Positions 26,406 through 58,844 of a DNA stretch of 64,000 nucleotides are shown in pieces. Under the pieces are notes generated by a model. The model had not been told where the DNA came from. It did no database searches and saw nothing but the letters and a program-made list of their open reading frames with translations. The DNA comes from Flaviaestuariibacter sp. (GTDB lineage: Bacteria; Bacteroidota; Bacteroidia; Chitinophagales; Chitinophagaceae). The DNA is taken from positions 62,001 through 126,000 of the forward strand of contig JAOQAI010000013.1 in NCBI GenBank assembly GCA_025963645.1, in the 5' to 3' direction. Each line of letters starts with the position of its first letter. Position 1 is the first letter of the stretch. Made by a program: the position numbers and the translations under genes.

Positions 26406-27099
26406 CGGCTTGCACATCCGGGTCAGTTTCAAGGTAGCGCATTTGTCCTTGTATCCAATTGCTTCTGCCCCTGATAAAAGAAGTGGCCGGTTGCGGACGT
26501 AAGCGTTTTGGAGCAGGTAAGCAAGCGGCTACTAAAGAAGCTTCTTTACGAGTTAGTTTAACGGCAGGCTTCTTAAAATAATGTTGCGCTGCCGCTTCCA
26601 CCCCATAAATCCCTTTACCCATCTCAATCACATTCAGGTACACTTCCATTATCCGGCGCTTGCCCCAGATCCATTCGATCATTTTTGTAAAATAGATCTC
26701 TAATCCCTTGCGAATCCAGCTTCTGCCTTGCCAGAGAAAAACATTCTTAGCCACCTGCTGGCTGATGGTGCTGGCGCCACGGATGCGGTTGGGTTTTTTC
26801 TTGTTGTATTTCATTGCCTTCTCAATGCTCTTCCAATCAAACCCGCTGTGGTCGGGAAAGATCTGGTCTTCGGAAGCGATAACGGCAAGCTTCATCGAGG
26901 GAGGGATTTCGTTGCCGGAAATATAATCCCGCTTCAATCCATCGCCAGCTATCCAACTGCTTAACTGCGTGATGGTAACAGGTGGGTTCACCCATTTGAG
27001 CAAAACGATATAAAGTAACTGCCCGATAAATAAGACAAGGAAAAGTCTTTTAATGGCACGCCAGATACGGTTGCCCTTTCCCTTTTTCCGCTTCTTCAT
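26320..27099 (-). CDS. mtgA: Monofunctional peptidoglycan glycosyltransferase
   Basis: A 259-residue membrane-anchored GT51 enzyme that polymerises lipid II into glycan strands. An N-terminal helix (about 15-35) precedes the five GT51 motifs: ASEDQIFPDHSGFDW with the catalytic Glu, RGASTISQQVAKNVFLW, RKGLEIYFTKMIE, KRRIMEVYLNVIEMGKGIYG and KEASLVAACLPAPKRLRP. A Lys/Pro/Ala-rich tail of about 25 residues extends beyond the usual end. That tail is what overlaps the NR-kinase gene on the other strand. Its start overlaps the LysE gene stop by 4 nt, so they are likely one transcript. Confidence 0.93.
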   Translation of the reverse strand: MKKRKKGKGNRIWRAIKRLFLVLFIGQLLYIVLLKWVNPPVTITQLSSWIAGDGLKRDYISGNEIPPSMKLAVIASEDQIFPDHSGFDWKSIEKAMKYNKKKPNRIRGASTISQQVAKNVFLWQGRSWIRKGLEIYFTKMIEWIWGKRRIMEVYLNVIEMGKGIYGVEAAAQHYFKKPAVKLTRKEASLVAACLPAPKRLRPQPATSFIRGRSNWIQGQMRYLETDPDVQAVIRKKPLSEKPSPKPKQPAAAAPKGSRK

Positions 27100-27740
27100 C
27101 CCTGCGGCAATTTATCGCTGAAGAACAGAAGTCCGCAAAGCAGCACAACGCCAAAGCCAATTAGAATAGCACCATTCAAGCGGCTGATCAGTTGTATGTT
27201 TTTTAAGGTAAGGCGCTGGCGGATTCGGTTCGCTAGAAACACTTTTGCAAGGTCGGAAACGAAGACCAGCACCAATGCGATGGAGAAGATAAGAATGCGT
27301 TGATTCAGGCTATCCTCTGCAAATGTTGTAGAGGTAGCCAGCCAGAAAAGGATGATAGCGGGGTTCAGGATGTTCATGAAAAACCCGGTTATCACCAGCT
27401 TTAGATAATCACGTTTCCGAAAACTTAATTGTTGCTTGCCTTCTTTATTGACAGCTACTTTTTTAAAGAAAAGAAAATACACGCCAACAGAGATGAGAAA
27501 AATGCTGCCGGTGATGCCAACGATCTCTTTTCGTTCTATCAGTGAATTAAATAACTCGGTAAAAAGATTAGCCGCAACCGCTAACGCGATATCGCTCAGC
27601 GAAACGCCGGCCACAAAAGCGAGCCCGCCTTTTACGCCATTATTGATGCTTTGTTTGATAATGGTAAAAAGGATCGGCCCAACTGCAATGCTAAGCAGCA
27701 GCCCTAATGTTAATCCTTTTATTAAAGCATAGGCAACCAT
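27096..27740 (-). CDS. LysE/RhtB-family amino-acid exporter
   Basis: A 214-residue inner-membrane protein with six helices and the family start ALIKGLTLGLLLSIAVGPILFTIIKQSINNG (GP motif near 21-22), followed by GLAFVAGVSLSDIALAV. The second half has GFFMNILNPAIILFW, the Asn-Pro motif of LysE translocators. The family exports amino acids or small metabolites by proton antiport; the substrate is unknown. It is coupled to mtgA through a 4-nt overlap. Upstream lies the four-helix-bundle element, whose left repeat arm begins 17 nt before the start codon. Confidence 0.87.
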   Translation of the reverse strand: MVAYALIKGLTLGLLLSIAVGPILFTIIKQSINNGVKGGLAFVAGVSLSDIALAVAANLFTELFNSLIERKEIVGITGSIFLISVGVYFLFFKKVAVNKEGKQQLSFRKRDYLKLVITGFFMNILNPAIILFWLATSTTFAEDSLNQRILIFSIALVLVFVSDLAKVFLANRIRQRLTLKNIQLISRLNGAILIGFGVVLLCGLLFFSDKLPQG

Positions 27741-27756
27741 AGAACAAGTAGAAAAT

Positions 27757-27790
27757 TTAAAGTACGAGGTACGAAGTTAGAAGTACGAAG
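27757..27790 (+). repeat. Left inverted-repeat arm of four-helix-bundle element
   Basis: Three copies of a tacgaag/tacgagg unit in 34 bp. Bases 27763-27777 (tacgaggtacgaagt) are an exact 15-nt reverse complement of 28189-28203. The arm ends 6 nt before the gene's stop codon. Confidence 0.8.
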
Positions 27791-27796
27791 CTAACT

Positions 27797-28150
27797 TCAG
27801 TTGCTTTGATTAGCTCGTGCGGTCCTTAATGAAGAGACTATGATTTTTAGAATTTCAGCCCCCTCGCTTATTAAGCCAAGAATAATTTCGGCCTCGCCTT
27901 TGTTGAACTCTAAAAGTAATTCAAGGAAGTAAATGGTCTCGTCTGTTTCTTCTTCTACAATTTTTAATTTGTTTATGAAGTCAGCCGTTGATTTAGCCCG
28001 TTGCGATGCTCTGTAGTTTGCGCCAATCGAAGACGAGCATCTAATCAGTTGGGAACAATAGGCTTTGTTGATTGTATTGTAAGAGAGCGATGCAACCAGT
28101 TTTCCCACTTGTACTGCATAGTTAAAAGTCCGTTTCTTTAAATCAGTCAT
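27797..28150 (-). CDS. Four-helix-bundle protein (23S rRNA intervening-sequence protein family)
   Basis: A 117-residue all-helical protein. Its signatures LIRCSSSIGANYRASQRAKS near 43-62 and FINKLKIVEEETDETIYFLELL near 66-87 define the S23/IVP four-helix bundle (TIGR02436), related to the Avd accessory protein of diversity-generating retroelements. Members were first seen inside intervening sequences of 23S rRNA genes; their biochemical role is not settled. Here the gene sits between protein genes, flanked by inverted repeats. ATG 28150 is favoured over an in-frame upstream start because the family begins there. The gene looks intact. Confidence 0.92.
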   Translation of the reverse strand: MTDLKKRTFNYAVQVGKLVASLSYNTINKAYCSQLIRCSSSIGANYRASQRAKSTADFINKLKIVEEETDETIYFLELLLEFNKGEAEIILGLISEGAEILKIIVSSLRTARANQSN

Positions 28151-28188
28151 AATACAATTGAATGATATTTCAAACAACCGTGCTCCAC

Positions 28189-28220
28189 ACTTCGTACCTC
28201 GTAATTCTTACTTCGTACTT
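28189..28220 (+). repeat. Right inverted-repeat arm, running into the GH3 3' end
   Basis: Units cttcgta / cctcgta repeat three times. Bases 28189-28203 pair exactly with 27763-27777. The arm overlaps the GH3 gene: its final codons GCA AGT ACG AAG TAA (ASTK-stop) are themselves a repeat unit. Confidence 0.8.
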
Positions 28221-29740
28221 GCTAAGAATTGGGTCCAATCCTCCAGCATCTTTCCTTTTAATACCCGCGGAAATTTATGCTGGCTTCCCAACTTTCCTTT
28301 GCTCTCCATGAATTTTAGAAATGTATCCTCTGATAATTTTTCCAGGAAAACTTCTTTTAGGGCACTGGTGCGTTCTACGGCATAATCGTCGTTCAACTCG
28401 CATAAGCGCTGGTCAATCTTTTTTGCAAGCATATCCGCTTCCACGTTATCATCGCAGGCTACATACCATTTGTGTGCAAAAAAGTTTTGGTAAGGATAAC
28501 CGATCACCGTGTATTCCGGGATAGAGATATTCAGTTCTTCGCTGACAAGCTGCACCGCCCGGTTCATATTCTCCACGCTCAGGTGTTCACCGACAAGGCT
28601 TAGGAAATGCTTGGTGCGGCCCGTGATCACCACCTCCGAACGCTCCAGGTCTACAAAACGCAATGTATCGCCGATCAGGTAGCGCCAGGCGCCGGCATTA
28701 GTGCTCATAAGCAACGCATATTCCCGTCCCATCTCCACTTCGTGGATCATTAAGGCTTCCGGGTTATCGACCATCTTTCCATCCGCATCGAAGTTTTTAT
28801 CATCAAAAGGCACAAACTCCATGAAGATATTATTACTTAGGATCAACTTCATGCCCTTGGCATCTTCACGGTCTTTGAAGCCGATAAAGCCTTCGCTGGA
28901 AAGATAGTTTTCGATGTAAATAATGGGCTTGCCCAGCAGCTTTTCAAACCCTTTTTTATACGGCTCAAACGCTACGCCGCCATGCACAAAAAAGCCAAGG
29001 TTTGGCCAAATATCATGTATCGTATTTACTTTATAATGCTGCACGATCATCTCCATGCACATCTGGCACCAGGCCGGCACACCAACTATATAACCAATAT
29101 CCCAATCCGGCGCTTTCTCTACGATCTCATTCAGTTTTTCATTCCAGTCCTGTATCTTGGCGATCCGCCCGCCGGGTTTGTAAAACGTCTGAAACCAGAA
29201 GGGACGGTTCTTGGCAAGAATGCCGCTGAGGTCACCGGAATACCAGCCCGCTGCGCCTTTTTGCAGATCAGTGGCGCCGCCCAACATCAGGAAGCCCTTA
29301 GTAATGGCGTTGCGTGGTAAATGACTATAAGTAAACACAGATAGCAGTTGGCGCAAATAATTCTCTTTGTTGCTACGCAGCATGTCCTTCGTTACCGGGA
29401 TGTATTTACTGGCAGATTCAGAAGTGCCGGAGCTAAGCGCATAGTATTTGATCTTTCCCGGCCAAGCAACGTCGGGCACGCCCTCCAGCGTTTTTTTCCA
29501 CCACTCTTGGTAAATTTTATTGTAGTCGTGAACCGGCACGCCTTCCTGAAAAGCTTTATCTACCTGCTTGTTCATCAGGATATCATCAAACCTGTATTGT
29601 TGTCCAAATGAAGTGAACCGGGCTTTTTTCAATAACTTTTTTAACACCCGCAACTGCTGCCGTTGCGGATCGTTTTCGGGTATCCGCAGCGCAGTGGCAA
29701 TTGCTTTCGGTAATTTAAAATCTATCAGTCGCGCCATCAA
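28208..29740 (-). CDS. GH3-family acyl-adenylate-type protein
   Basis: A 510-residue protein of the GH3 auxin-responsive promoter family, which belongs to the ANL adenylating fold. The ATP motif region YALSSGTSESASKYIPVT near 108-125 and GGVAFEPYKKGFEKLLG near 254-270, YLSSEGFIGF, and YRYLIGDTLRFVD-like (WRYLIGDTLRFVD) near 350-362 are clear. Plant members conjugate amino acids to acyl hormones; the bacterial substrate is unknown. Soluble, no signal peptide. The last four codons are built from the neighbouring repeat, so the original C-terminus may have been altered. Confidence 0.88.
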   Translation of the reverse strand: MMARLIDFKLPKAIATALRIPENDPQRQQLRVLKKLLKKARFTSFGQQYRFDDILMNKQVDKAFQEGVPVHDYNKIYQEWWKKTLEGVPDVAWPGKIKYYALSSGTSESASKYIPVTKDMLRSNKENYLRQLLSVFTYSHLPRNAITKGFLMLGGATDLQKGAAGWYSGDLSGILAKNRPFWFQTFYKPGGRIAKIQDWNEKLNEIVEKAPDWDIGYIVGVPAWCQMCMEMIVQHYKVNTIHDIWPNLGFFVHGGVAFEPYKKGFEKLLGKPIIYIENYLSSEGFIGFKDREDAKGMKLILSNNIFMEFVPFDDKNFDADGKMVDNPEALMIHEVEMGREYALLMSTNAGAWRYLIGDTLRFVDLERSEVVITGRTKHFLSLVGEHLSVENMNRAVQLVSEELNISIPEYTVIGYPYQNFFAHKWYVACDDNVEADMLAKKIDQRLCELNDDYAVERTSALKEVFLEKLSEDTFLKFMESKGKLGSQHKFPRVLKGKMLEDWTQFLASTK

Positions 29741-42633: not shown

Positions 42634-42668
42634 CGCATTTGCACCCATCAACACCCTACTTTAGCGCC

Positions 42669-43820
42669 ATGCGCTACCGCAAGCTAAAAGGCGATTTTAT
42701 TTTTGATGGTTTCGAAATGCAGGAAGGCAAAGTGCTGATCGTGGATGAATCCGGAAAGGTAGAAGCGCTGGTGCCCGAAAACGAAGCCCCGGATGCGGAA
42801 TATCATGCCGGCATTTTGTCCCCCGGTTTTATTAATTGTCATTGTCACCTGGAGCTAAGCCACATGAAGGGTCTGATACCGGAAGGAACGGGGCTGGTGG
42901 ATTTTGTTTTGGGCGTGGTGACGCAGCGGCATTTTGCAGAGGATGAAATAAGAGAAGCAATTGCTAAAGCCGAAGCAGATATGAAAGCGGCTGGCATTGT
43001 AGCCGTTGGTGATATTTGCAACAATACTCTCACACTTGAACAGAAACAAAAGAGTAATCTGCGCTACCATAATTTTATTGAAGCCAGCGGCTGGCTGCCT
43101 TCTGTTGCCGATGTACGGTTCAGCAGGGCATTAGGTATTTATAAGGAATTCACCACTCACCACTCACCACTCACTACTCTCGTTCCGCATGCCCCTTACT
43201 CGGTGTCAGCCGAATTATGGCGGCAGCTAAAGCCTTATTTTAAAAACAATACCGTCTCTATTCATAACCAGGAAACGGCACACGAGAATGACTTTTTCCA
43301 AACCGGCAGCGGCGATTTTCAGCGGATGTACGAGTTGATGAAGATTGATAACAGTCATCATCAGCCAACCGGTAAAACAAGCGTGCAATCTTATTTCCAT
43401 CATCTCTCAGAGGCTTCCCGGTTGCTCTTAGTGCATAATACTTTTACTTCGCAGGAAGACCTTGACTTTATTCAAAATTCAAAATTCAAAATTCAAAATT
43501 TCTTGTGCCTGTGCGTGAATGCTAATCTATACATTGAAAAAGCATTGCCACCGTTAGAATTACTCCGCTCTAATAACATGACGATTGTATTGGGAACGGA
43601 TAGTCTTGCCAGCAATTGGAGTTTGAGCATTGCAGACGAAATGCGAACGATGCGGAAACATTTTCCAGCTATACCCTTAGTCGAAATGCTGCGTTGGGCT
43701 ACAAGCAATGGGGCAAATGCATTGGGAATTATTGATCGCTTTGGAAGTTTTGAGGCGGGGAAAAAACCGGGTGTGCTTTGTCTGCAACCGGAAAGTCTTT
43801 TAGTGCGTAGCTTAGCTTAA
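42669..43820 (+). CDS. Amidohydrolase-family metalloenzyme (TRZ/ATZ type)
   Basis: A 383-residue deaminase-like hydrolase with the TIM-barrel metal motifs SPGFINCHCHLELSHMKG near 46-63 (HxH), LVPHAPYSVS near 174-183, VSIHNQETAHEN near 197-208, LLLVHNTFTS near 252-261 and GTDSLASNWSLS near 308-319. It resembles SsnA/TrzF-like and menaquinone-route deaminases; the substrate is unknown. Two short tandem arrays, caccact x4 and ttcaaaa x4, are embedded in the coding frame (TTHHSPLTT and QNSKFKIQN), lengthening surface loops. The frame survives both. The last 9 bases overlap recO. Confidence 0.85.
   Translation: MRYRKLKGDFIFDGFEMQEGKVLIVDESGKVEALVPENEAPDAEYHAGILSPGFINCHCHLELSHMKGLIPEGTGLVDFVLGVVTQRHFAEDEIREAIAKAEADMKAAGIVAVGDICNNTLTLEQKQKSNLRYHNFIEASGWLPSVADVRFSRALGIYKEFTTHHSPLTTLVPHAPYSVSAELWRQLKPYFKNNTVSIHNQETAHENDFFQTGSGDFQRMYELMKIDNSHHQPTGKTSVQSYFHHLSEASRLLLVHNTFTSQEDLDFIQNSKFKIQNFLCLCVNANLYIEKALPPLELLRSNNMTIVLGTDSLASNWSLSIADEMRTMRKHFPAIPLVEMLRWATSNGANALGIIDRFGSFEAGKKPGVLCLQPESLLVRSLA
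43151..43178 (+). repeat. In-gene tandem array, caccact x4
   Basis: Four consecutive 7-nt units (three exact caccact, one cactact) inside the amidohydrolase gene, encoding the loop TTHHSPLTT. Confidence 0.85.
43471..43500 (+). repeat. In-gene tandem array, ttcaaaa x4
   Basis: Four exact ttcaaaa units plus tt inside the amidohydrolase gene, encoding IQNSKFKIQNF. The insertion separates LVHNTFTSQEDLD from CVNANLYIE. Confidence 0.85.
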
Positions 43821-44549
43821 TATTTCCCGCAACACCGGCAGTGTTTTCAGGTGTCCAAACTCCGGGATATGCAGCGCATAATAGGTTTCGAGGGCCTGCA
43901 GCATTCGGCGGCGCATCTCGCTGTTCAATTTCAGGTCTTCTAATTCGTTTGGTATTTGCACTTTTAAAATATGCGCCACGGCTTCGGCTTCTTTGCCTTC
44001 TAAATAGTGCGGGTGGCGTGGTTGGTTGGCAATAAAAACACCTTCCTGAAGATCGAGGTAGTTCAGCTCCTCGGTGTGTTCATCAGAAATGCGAAACCCA
44101 AAAAATACCGCCAAGTGCAGTGCAAAGAATAGCGGAAAATTAGCGGTTACGGTAGGTGTAGCGCTATCCAAGTGCAGCAACGCATCTTCCAGGAAATAAA
44201 ACAATTCATTATTCGGCTCTGGTTCTTTTAAGCTTTTCGTCAGCAGCTCAATAGCAAAAACTGCTACTGCGTTCTTAAACACATCGGAAAAAAGATGGCT
44301 GTATAGGTGCGCCCATTTGTATTCCTTTATGCGCTGCAGGTTCTTGAAGTCATTGTGGTAAACTACCAGGTCCAAATAAGCACCAGGCTGAAAGTAGGAC
44401 GCCTTTGCCGTGCCCTTTGATGATGCCTGCCGTACGCCATTAACGATATAGGATTGCAACCCAAAGAGTTCCGTAAAAGCGGTAACAATGAGGCTGCTCT
44501 CGCCAAACTTTACCGTACGCAGTACAATTCCTTTTGTTTTATGAACCAT
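43812..44549 (-). CDS. recO: DNA repair protein RecO
   Basis: A 245-residue protein: OB-fold start MVHKTKGIVLRTVKFGESSLIVTAFTELFG, VNGVRQASSKGTAKASYFQPGAYLDLVVYH, then the helical domain (LLTKSLKEPEPNNELFYFLEDAL). RecO loads RecA on gapped DNA together with RecR. The Bacteroidota form lacks the four-Cys zinc site of E. coli-like members, as here. It lies downstream of porZ on the same strand; this recO-porZ neighbourhood is, to my knowledge, common in the phylum. A 27-nt-armed hairpin sits in the 90-bp gap between them. Confidence 0.92.
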   Translation of the reverse strand: MVHKTKGIVLRTVKFGESSLIVTAFTELFGLQSYIVNGVRQASSKGTAKASYFQPGAYLDLVVYHNDFKNLQRIKEYKWAHLYSHLFSDVFKNAVAVFAIELLTKSLKEPEPNNELFYFLEDALLHLDSATPTVTANFPLFFALHLAVFFGFRISDEHTEELNYLDLQEGVFIANQPRHPHYLEGKEAEAVAHILKVQIPNELEDLKLNSEMRRRMLQALETYYALHIPEFGHLKTLPVLREILS

Positions 44550-44561
44550 GTGTGAGAGTTA

Positions 44562-44630
44562 TGAATTATGAGTTATGAATTATGAATGTTATAACCAGCA
44601 CGACATTCTTAATTCATAACTCATAATTCT
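44562..44630. repeat. Intergenic palindromic element of ttatgaat units
   Basis: Left arm 44562-44588 and right arm 44604-44630 pair over 27 nt with two mismatches around a 15-nt loop. The arms consist of repeated gaattatga/gttatgaat units. The element nearly fills the porZ-recO gap. Confidence 0.85.
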
Positions 44631-44639
44631 CAATTACAC

Positions 44640-58756: not shown

Positions 58757-58837
58757 TTGATGATATGATGATTCGGCGATTTGATGATATGGTGTCAGAT
58801 TTCAACCATTATCAAATTATCAAATCGTCAAATCAGC
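58757..58837. repeat. Intergenic element of gatttgat-type units in opposed orientation
   Basis: Units like tttgatgatatg repeat in 58757-58794 and their complements (tatcaaat, tcaaatcg) in 58806-58837, giving an imperfect inverted repeat with cgatttgatgatatggt and accattatcaaattatc as inner arms. It fills the gap between the PiT and DUF47 genes. Confidence 0.75.
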
Positions 58838-58844
58838 TAATTGC

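Follow-up and report, generated by a model that had tools for sequence, protein, structure and literature searches.

The gene for an S23 four-helix-bundle protein that lies between a GH3-family and a LysE-family gene in the window (the 64-kb stretch of Flaviaestuariibacter DNA analysed here) is enclosed by a hairpin built from short tandem repeats. This element, about 470 nt long, belongs to a large family of hairpin elements, and the evidence set out below points to S23 genes in repeat-built hairpins as a widespread, little-described kind of genetic element. Our explanation, to which we give a probability of roughly two in three, is that the S23 protein of such a hairpin element is a pentamer that recognises the repeat arms of its own element in single-stranded form and serves the spread of the arrays in trans, the intervening sequence (IVS) of 23S rRNA being the rRNA-borne case.

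The coordinates of the element and its neighbours are given in Table 1. The original prediction, made from the window alone, had described arms of tacgaag/tacgagg units around a four-helix-bundle gene, with limits at 27757 and 28220 and an exact inverted match of 15 nt. The element is located there, but its limits were drawn slightly too tight, since the arms reach 27745 and 28221. The 15 nt at 27763-27777 (TACGAGGTACGAAGT) recur without mismatch, as the reverse complement, at 28189-28203. In the 64-kb window there are nine such exact inverted pairs of 15 nt, no more than 500 nt apart and located at four places; five Markov shuffles contained none. The 15-nt match is only one stretch within a longer degenerate array: the arms extend past this core (27745-27787 and 28179-28221) and are 74% complementary over 43 nt. 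With up to two mismatches TACGARGTACGARG occurs eight times in the 64 kb (0.47 expected), and seven of these occurrences are in the two arms. The enclosed gene (27797-28150, minus strand) matches PF05635 (E 2e-12) and TIGR02436 (E 2e-18) and passes the curated cut-offs of both families (47.5 vs 33.8 bits and 66.7 vs 24 bits, respectively); the AF2 model of its product is a four-helix bundle (pLDDT 94.5).

Table 1. Positions of the S23 element, its host flanks and a gene-less hairpin in the window
Feature	Position	Strand	Remarks
Left arm	27745..27796		Degenerate 7-nt array (TACGAGG TACGAAG TTAGAAG TACGAAG), downstream of S23; a few other bases on outer side
S23 / four-helix-bundle gene	27797..28150	-	117 aa from ATG at 28150; ORF opens with TTG at 28177
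Right arm	28179..28221		Inverted array copy, upstream of S23; minus strand AAGTACG AAGTAAG AATTACG AGGTACG AAG
GH3 terminal codons and stop	28208..28222	-	GCA AGT ACG AAG TAA, within right arm
GH3-family gene (host flank, upstream)	28208..29740	-	PF03321
LysE-family gene (host flank, downstream)	27096..27740	-	PF01810
Gene-less inverted pair of 7-nt arrays	44553..44635		GAGTTAT/GAATTAT unit, inner loop 9 nt

As had been supposed, the right arm provides the last codons and the stop of GH3 (28208-29740, minus strand). Other GH3 orthologues of the same genus end in different codons; the exception is L149, which carries an array. Folding of the element around its gene in RNA had also been proposed, and such a structure is predicted. 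In the predicted fold of the minus-strand RNA 27741-28230 the two arms pair to give a terminal stem. Its energy is -125.8 kcal/mol, compared with -103.1 (sd 5.4) for shuffled sequences (z -4.2), and none of 100 shuffles equalled it.

The arrangement is not peculiar to the window. TIGR02436 was detected in 49 of 58 genomes (that of the window and its relatives) with 0 to 18 matches each, and the window's own genome, which is 63% complete, contained 12. Our main set comprised 134 loci with 135 genes, mostly the best matches of a longer list; three genes were left out because of short flanks and 132 were counted. For each gene the 170 nt upstream were compared with the reverse complement of the downstream side, and a score of 23, the 99th percentile of shifted controls, served as threshold. 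An arm pair above this score was present at 109 of the 132 genes and in 8 of 1155 shifted windows, which come from the same loci and may themselves include gene-less arrays. Mismatched arm pairs assembled from different loci exceeded it in 120 of 3000 cases. All 11 loci examined in the window's genome (of its 12 matches) possessed an arm pair. A second set was collected with a query carrying the SIPSNIAE motif and represents one branch of the family (one of its 86 loci, L198, was left out); here 69 of 85 genes and 18 of 780 controls scored above the threshold. The original prediction was to be abandoned if relatives lacked flanking inverted repeats, and most genes of both sets have them.

Within the second set, arm pairs were found at 56 of 69 genome loci without an other-phylum label, at five of six loci on viral contigs and at eight of ten loci labelled as other phyla. 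Two of the latter were close to the threshold (24 and 28), and as all of these loci come from metagenome bins the phylum labels may be wrong. S23 matches were also found in 29 plasmid records; eight were sampled, all of them cyanobacterial, and seven scored above 23. A plasmid of Pseudanabaena galeata (L376) has long direct, not inverted, arrays at S23 and stayed below the threshold. No arm pair at threshold was seen at 23 of the 132 and 16 of the 85 genes, some of which have arrays that are recognisable by eye. No 23S rRNA context was evident at 16 loci on viral contigs or from other phyla, where Rfam gave no match at its gathering thresholds. Together these counts point to S23 within inverted arrays as a general pattern in the several bacterial phyla sampled. 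As a separate observation, in L376 and in L382 (a plasmid of Anabaena sp. 90) the S23 gene is part of a type I-D CRISPR operon, with cas6 on one side and cas4 on the other. The 23S rRNA IVP is named among CRISPR associations in a figure legend of PMC10910872.

The arms are periodic. Bases match at a lag of 7 with a frequency of 0.49, compared with 0.26 in control stretches, and there is an echo of 0.45 at lag 14. The best period was 7 at 81 and 8 at 23 of the 109 loci. Five units were counted in 82 of 216 arms, four in 44 and six in 41. The sequence of the unit varies between loci, and it goes with the S23 protein subfamily even at unrelated sites. This was examined, like arm likeness and orientation, with genes over the arm threshold only (109 of 132, and 64 of 79 in the named set). 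Across 5753 locus pairs without homologous neighbours, protein identity and arm similarity were correlated with a Mantel r of 0.305; the maximum of 2000 permutations was 0.092 (p<=0.0005) and an opposite-strand control gave 0.006. Common descent could explain part of this correlation, but at 40-60% protein identity, where unconstrained DNA would be scrambled, arm likeness is still 0.33-0.37 compared with about 0.20. The period behaves similarly: it was shared by 45 of 45 locus pairs with at least 60% protein identity, and by a fraction of 0.78 of pairs with at least 40% identity, compared with 0.65 by permutation (maximum 0.76). Close pairs in which both members have period 8 were not in excess (33; permutation mean 24.6, maximum 53).

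The two arms of one element also resemble each other, the own opposite arm being a better match than the arms of relatives in 77 of 98 cases. Among the korB orthologues, variable bases within the unit did not pair strictly from arm to arm. Conservation along the unit was only a little more uneven than by chance (variance 0.032 vs 0.025, 156 arms), so that a unit made of a conserved core and a spacer is weakly supported. An exclusion between co-resident elements (13 pairs, p 0.036) is suggestive only. A search for specificity residues by column-wise partial correlation was dropped, as the best r was 0.16 and equally large values occurred with negative sign. At L128 the unit of the subfamily is present in reversed form and one arm counts 17 units.

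Arrays of this type are not confined to S23 genes. In a scan of 864 kb (800 kb of the complete relative G003 and the 64-kb window) we found 68 arrays of period 7 and 18 of period 8, compared with one and none, respectively, when each block was shuffled once by a Markov model. Periods 9 to 15 together yielded a single array; for period 5 there were 15 arrays and 11 in shuffles, for period 6 there were 13 and 2, respectively. Merging left 86 arrays, of which nine are beside S23. An inverted partner without S23 was seen for 39, another 22 are solo, and the other 16 fall in a naive long reading frame. With a distance of up to 1500 nt allowed, the 864 kb contained 34 inverted pairs: five around S23, 28 around loops of 9-180 nt and one of another kind. 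In other words, five of the six gene-sized inverted pairs hold S23. The sixth, at 43464-44587 of the window, spans a 245-codon ORF that is not S23. Its left partner is an array within a 393-codon gene, and on the right it uses the left arm of the hairpin 44553-44635 (Table 1). We read this one exception as a cross-match because the right partner pairs better with 44605-44635. The unit of the hairpin itself recurs at S23 genes of another subfamily (L057 and L135).

The 72 arrays of G003 that are remote from S23 resemble the S23 arms of the same genome with a score of 0.537, while equal-sized sets of S23 arms from other genomes gave 0.376 (sd 0.033) against the same arrays, and none of 500 sets scored as high. 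Short inverted arrays without a gene, built from the units of its own S23 genes, are scattered over the sampled genome of G003.

It might be argued that arrays of period 7 or 8 are by-products of polymerase slippage, that template switching keeps the arms alike and that S23 merely sits between them. PMC4679880 indeed cites an earlier survey in which heptamers were the commonest class of repeat in most repeat-rich genomes and slippage was proposed, and arrays without an inverted partner exist (22 of 86). However, slippage predicts neither the coupling of unit and subfamily at unrelated sites nor the presence of S23 in five of six gene-sized pairs in the 864 kb, nor does it predict gene-less arrays that match the S23 units of their own genome. 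We consider this explanation very improbable.

Several arrays seen on the way deserve mention. Two of period 7 (43144-43184 and 43464-43506 of the window) are located in one gene of 393 codons (42639-43820, plus strand), so units of this length can sit in coding sequence without a break of the frame. A period-8 array at 58808-58841 of the window had no inverted partner above the threshold. L008 (region G000:C12:166280) is a long direct array of TACGAAG/TGCGAAG without an S23 match nearby, and L007 and L015 are shorter arrays of the same unit.

Orthologous junctions with and without the gene were compared at three places. LysE adjoins GH3 in 16 of 17 GH3 orthologues of the genus and is absent from this place in one. 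S23 genes, sought by tblastn (L163-L175 were left out as distant GH3 paralogues), were present at the junction in two of the 17, a gene-less inverted array was recognised by eye in two, and in 12 LysE adjoins GH3 with neither. In G012 the S23 gene between GH3 and LysE has the opposite orientation and uses the same unit as the window element. A junction that always contained the gene would have spoken against insertion as originally predicted, and the junction is mostly without it. Between glgA and glgC, S23 was found only in the window's genome among 16 compared, and there, too, the stop codon of the gene upstream is part of the arm. S23 was present at the junction before korB in seven of 17 cases (one partial), absent in six with the same upstream neighbour, and in four the neighbour was not found; truncated or distant matches were left out at the glgC and korB junctions (L318-L321, L339-L341). 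From presence and absence at these three junctions we conclude that the elements come and go. No target duplication was visible by eye at the three junctions, whose flanks are too diverged for a clear reading. Co-resident S23 genes were not more alike than those from different genomes (identity of at least 50% in 6 of 197 vs 154 of 4931 pairs), which speaks against recent bursts of copying within a genome. S23 genes also appear to decay in place: three of the approximately 13 copies in G003 look broken by a stop or a change of frame (L025, L369/L374 and L371/L375).

The elements have a preferred direction. Where both neighbours could be called, S23 ran with a tandem pair in 71 of 101 cases and against it in six cases, while 14 neighbour pairs were convergent and 10 divergent; in the named set it ran with the tandem pair in 52 of 53. 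The stop codon of a neighbour was inside the arm in 47 of 109 cases in which the 3' end of a neighbour faces an element. Sense placement and stops in the arms fit an element that is read from host transcripts. The same orientation between tandem genes, and upstream arrays that often abut the S23 start codon, could also be explained by autoregulation only. S23 would then bind the array in its own 5' leader and control its own translation, the downstream array would act as a terminator or stabiliser, and the element would be immobile. Gene-less inverted arrays at many sites, presence and absence of S23 at one junction and the likeness between the arms of one element speak against this, and we give it very little credence.

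How could an S23 protein and its arms work together? The model of the window's S23 protein matches 2RLD (Z 17.7) and 2GSC (Z 16.7). The latter, Xcc0516, is described in PMC4990558 (citing Lin 2006) as a toroidal homopentamer, and the same article speaks of S23 proteins as having no known function. Next came Avd (4DWL, Z 14.0) and the Avd chains of a reverse-transcriptase complex from a diversity-generating retroelement, DGR (8UB8, Z 14.1); PMC10053308 describes PF05635 and Avd as homologous. The Avd score alone is weak because a designed helix bundle matches about as well (Z 13.9). Recognition of the arms by S23 is the best-supported step that we infer. The S23 ring, a homopentamer in solved relatives, would bind the single-stranded array of the element that encodes it, probably as part of the operon transcript. 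Each subunit would take about one unit, much as TRAP binds spaced NAG triplets. Unit counts of about five would agree with this without proving it. A period of 7 nt is out of step with the DNA helix, and therefore single-stranded RNA or DNA wrapped on the ring is favoured. The paired arms would form an RNA hairpin that may be cut by RNase III-type enzymes, as in the IVS of 23S rRNA, and such cutting would make an insertion inside an operon tolerable. The S23 protein might serve the spread of arrays in trans together with a partner enzyme, and the 23S rRNA IVS would be the same kind of element placed in an rRNA gene.

In RAYT/REPIN systems one protein gene is located between inverted repeats, gene-less inverted pairs are dispersed over the genome, and repeat and protein subfamily are coupled; the REP itself is palindromic and has a tetranucleotide tag. 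A DNA-level mechanism of this type has to be weighed for S23. The protein would bind the arrays as single-stranded DNA hairpins, copying would be left to a Y1 (HUH) transposase encoded elsewhere or to the replication machinery, and RNA pairing would be incidental. The REPIN-like layout of the gene-less inverted pairs agrees with this, as does the correlation between the numbers of S23 and Y1 matches (rho 0.63 in 47 genomes at least 90% complete, 0.55 in the 34 outside the window's genus), although these are match counts in which a split gene counts twice and the correlation ignores phylogeny. However, G024 and G037 have three and six S23 matches, respectively, and no Y1 match, and the strong sense orientation of S23 elements speaks for RNA. 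The Y1 loci themselves served as a positive control for the arm test: 12 of 20 scored above 23, but by eye they carry REP-like palindromes in the related genomes and not 7-nt arrays (lag-7 match 0.12-0.44), which sets the S23 and Y1/REP systems apart. GGTAG-like tags accompany the REP-like palindromes that flank the Y1 transposase genes of L345, L347, L350 and L360. On balance we hold the DNA-level mechanism to be unlikely and prefer recognition of single-stranded arms, probably in RNA.

Other ideas were tried and dropped. A reverse transcriptase is not a required partner, as the numbers of PF00078 and S23 matches, again with split genes counted twice, were uncorrelated in 47 genomes (rho 0.06). 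Phage cargo was rejected since only six relatives of the query were present in the viral collection and the best PHROGs match had an E value of 0.019. With regard to a defence role, PADLOC gave no match at E 1.

The IVS has so far been studied as an oddity of 23S rRNA, and S23 now obtains a likely ligand, the repeat of its own arms. Because the unit changes with the subfamily, a simple binding assay, in which swapped units act as built-in controls, can test the function of S23. Next to RAYT with its REPINs, S23 would be a second protein, unrelated to the first, that appears to be associated with hairpin repeats, and S23 elements are a possible source of the heptamer repeats reported in several phyla. 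More tentatively, we suggest a new class of protein and repeat in many phyla, in which pentameric S23 places a private unit of 7 or 8 nt per subunit on single-stranded arrays and which might have given rise to the 23S rRNA IVS, to the heptamers of cyanobacteria, Xanthomonas and Beggiatoaceae and to the gene-less hairpins of Bacteroidota. Among the matches listed in a search of the open-access literature none linked S23 genes at large with inverted arrays of heptamers.

Like the 23S rRNA IVS, the window element has paired ends that enclose an S23 ORF, and like the IVS of Coxiella it has tandem heptamers upstream of this ORF. PMC4990558 describes GACAGAT heptamers just upstream of the Coxiella S23 gene, with a copy number that varies by strain, and a 28-bp terminal stem with excision by RNase III in vitro; Leptospira and Brucella are also named there as having an IVS. 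The heptamers and the stem strengthen the kinship with the IVS on which the original prediction had been built. In contrast to the IVS, the window element is not located in a 23S rRNA gene but has GH3 and LysE genes as neighbours, and its relatives are dispersed, use many different units and include gene-less versions. The window element has the anatomy of an IVS without its location, and the 23S IVS is best regarded as a single case within this family.

The layout of RAYT/REPIN is shared in that the S23 gene lies between inverted repeats, unit and subfamily go together, and 28 gene-less pairs with loops of 9-180 nt occur in 800 kb of G003 and the window (one of them in the window). Unlike RAYT, the element encodes an S23 four-helix bundle and no HUH (Y1) transposase, and unlike REPs its arms are arrays of 7 or 8 nt and not palindromes. 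With the DGR protein Avd the S23 model shares a similar fold (Z about 14), but unlike in DGRs there was no PF00078 match in G000 (63% complete) or in ten genomes that are at least 95% complete and have five or more S23 matches. TRAP is a ring protein that binds spaced short RNA repeats (NAG triplets), and the likeness of S23 to it would be an analogy in binding mode. Finally, S23 arms resemble the heptamers of Xanthomonas (GGGAATC), Nostoc and Beggiatoaceae (TAACTGA) in being tandem units of 7 nt. The article on Xanthomonas (PMC4692102) reports 70 and 75 inverted pairs of GGGAATC in two genomes, and TAACTGA arrays are reported from Beggiatoaceae, cyanobacteria and five Bacteroidetes (PMC4679880). 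The word S23 does not occur in the main text of either article, and the link of these heptamers to S23 is proposed here.
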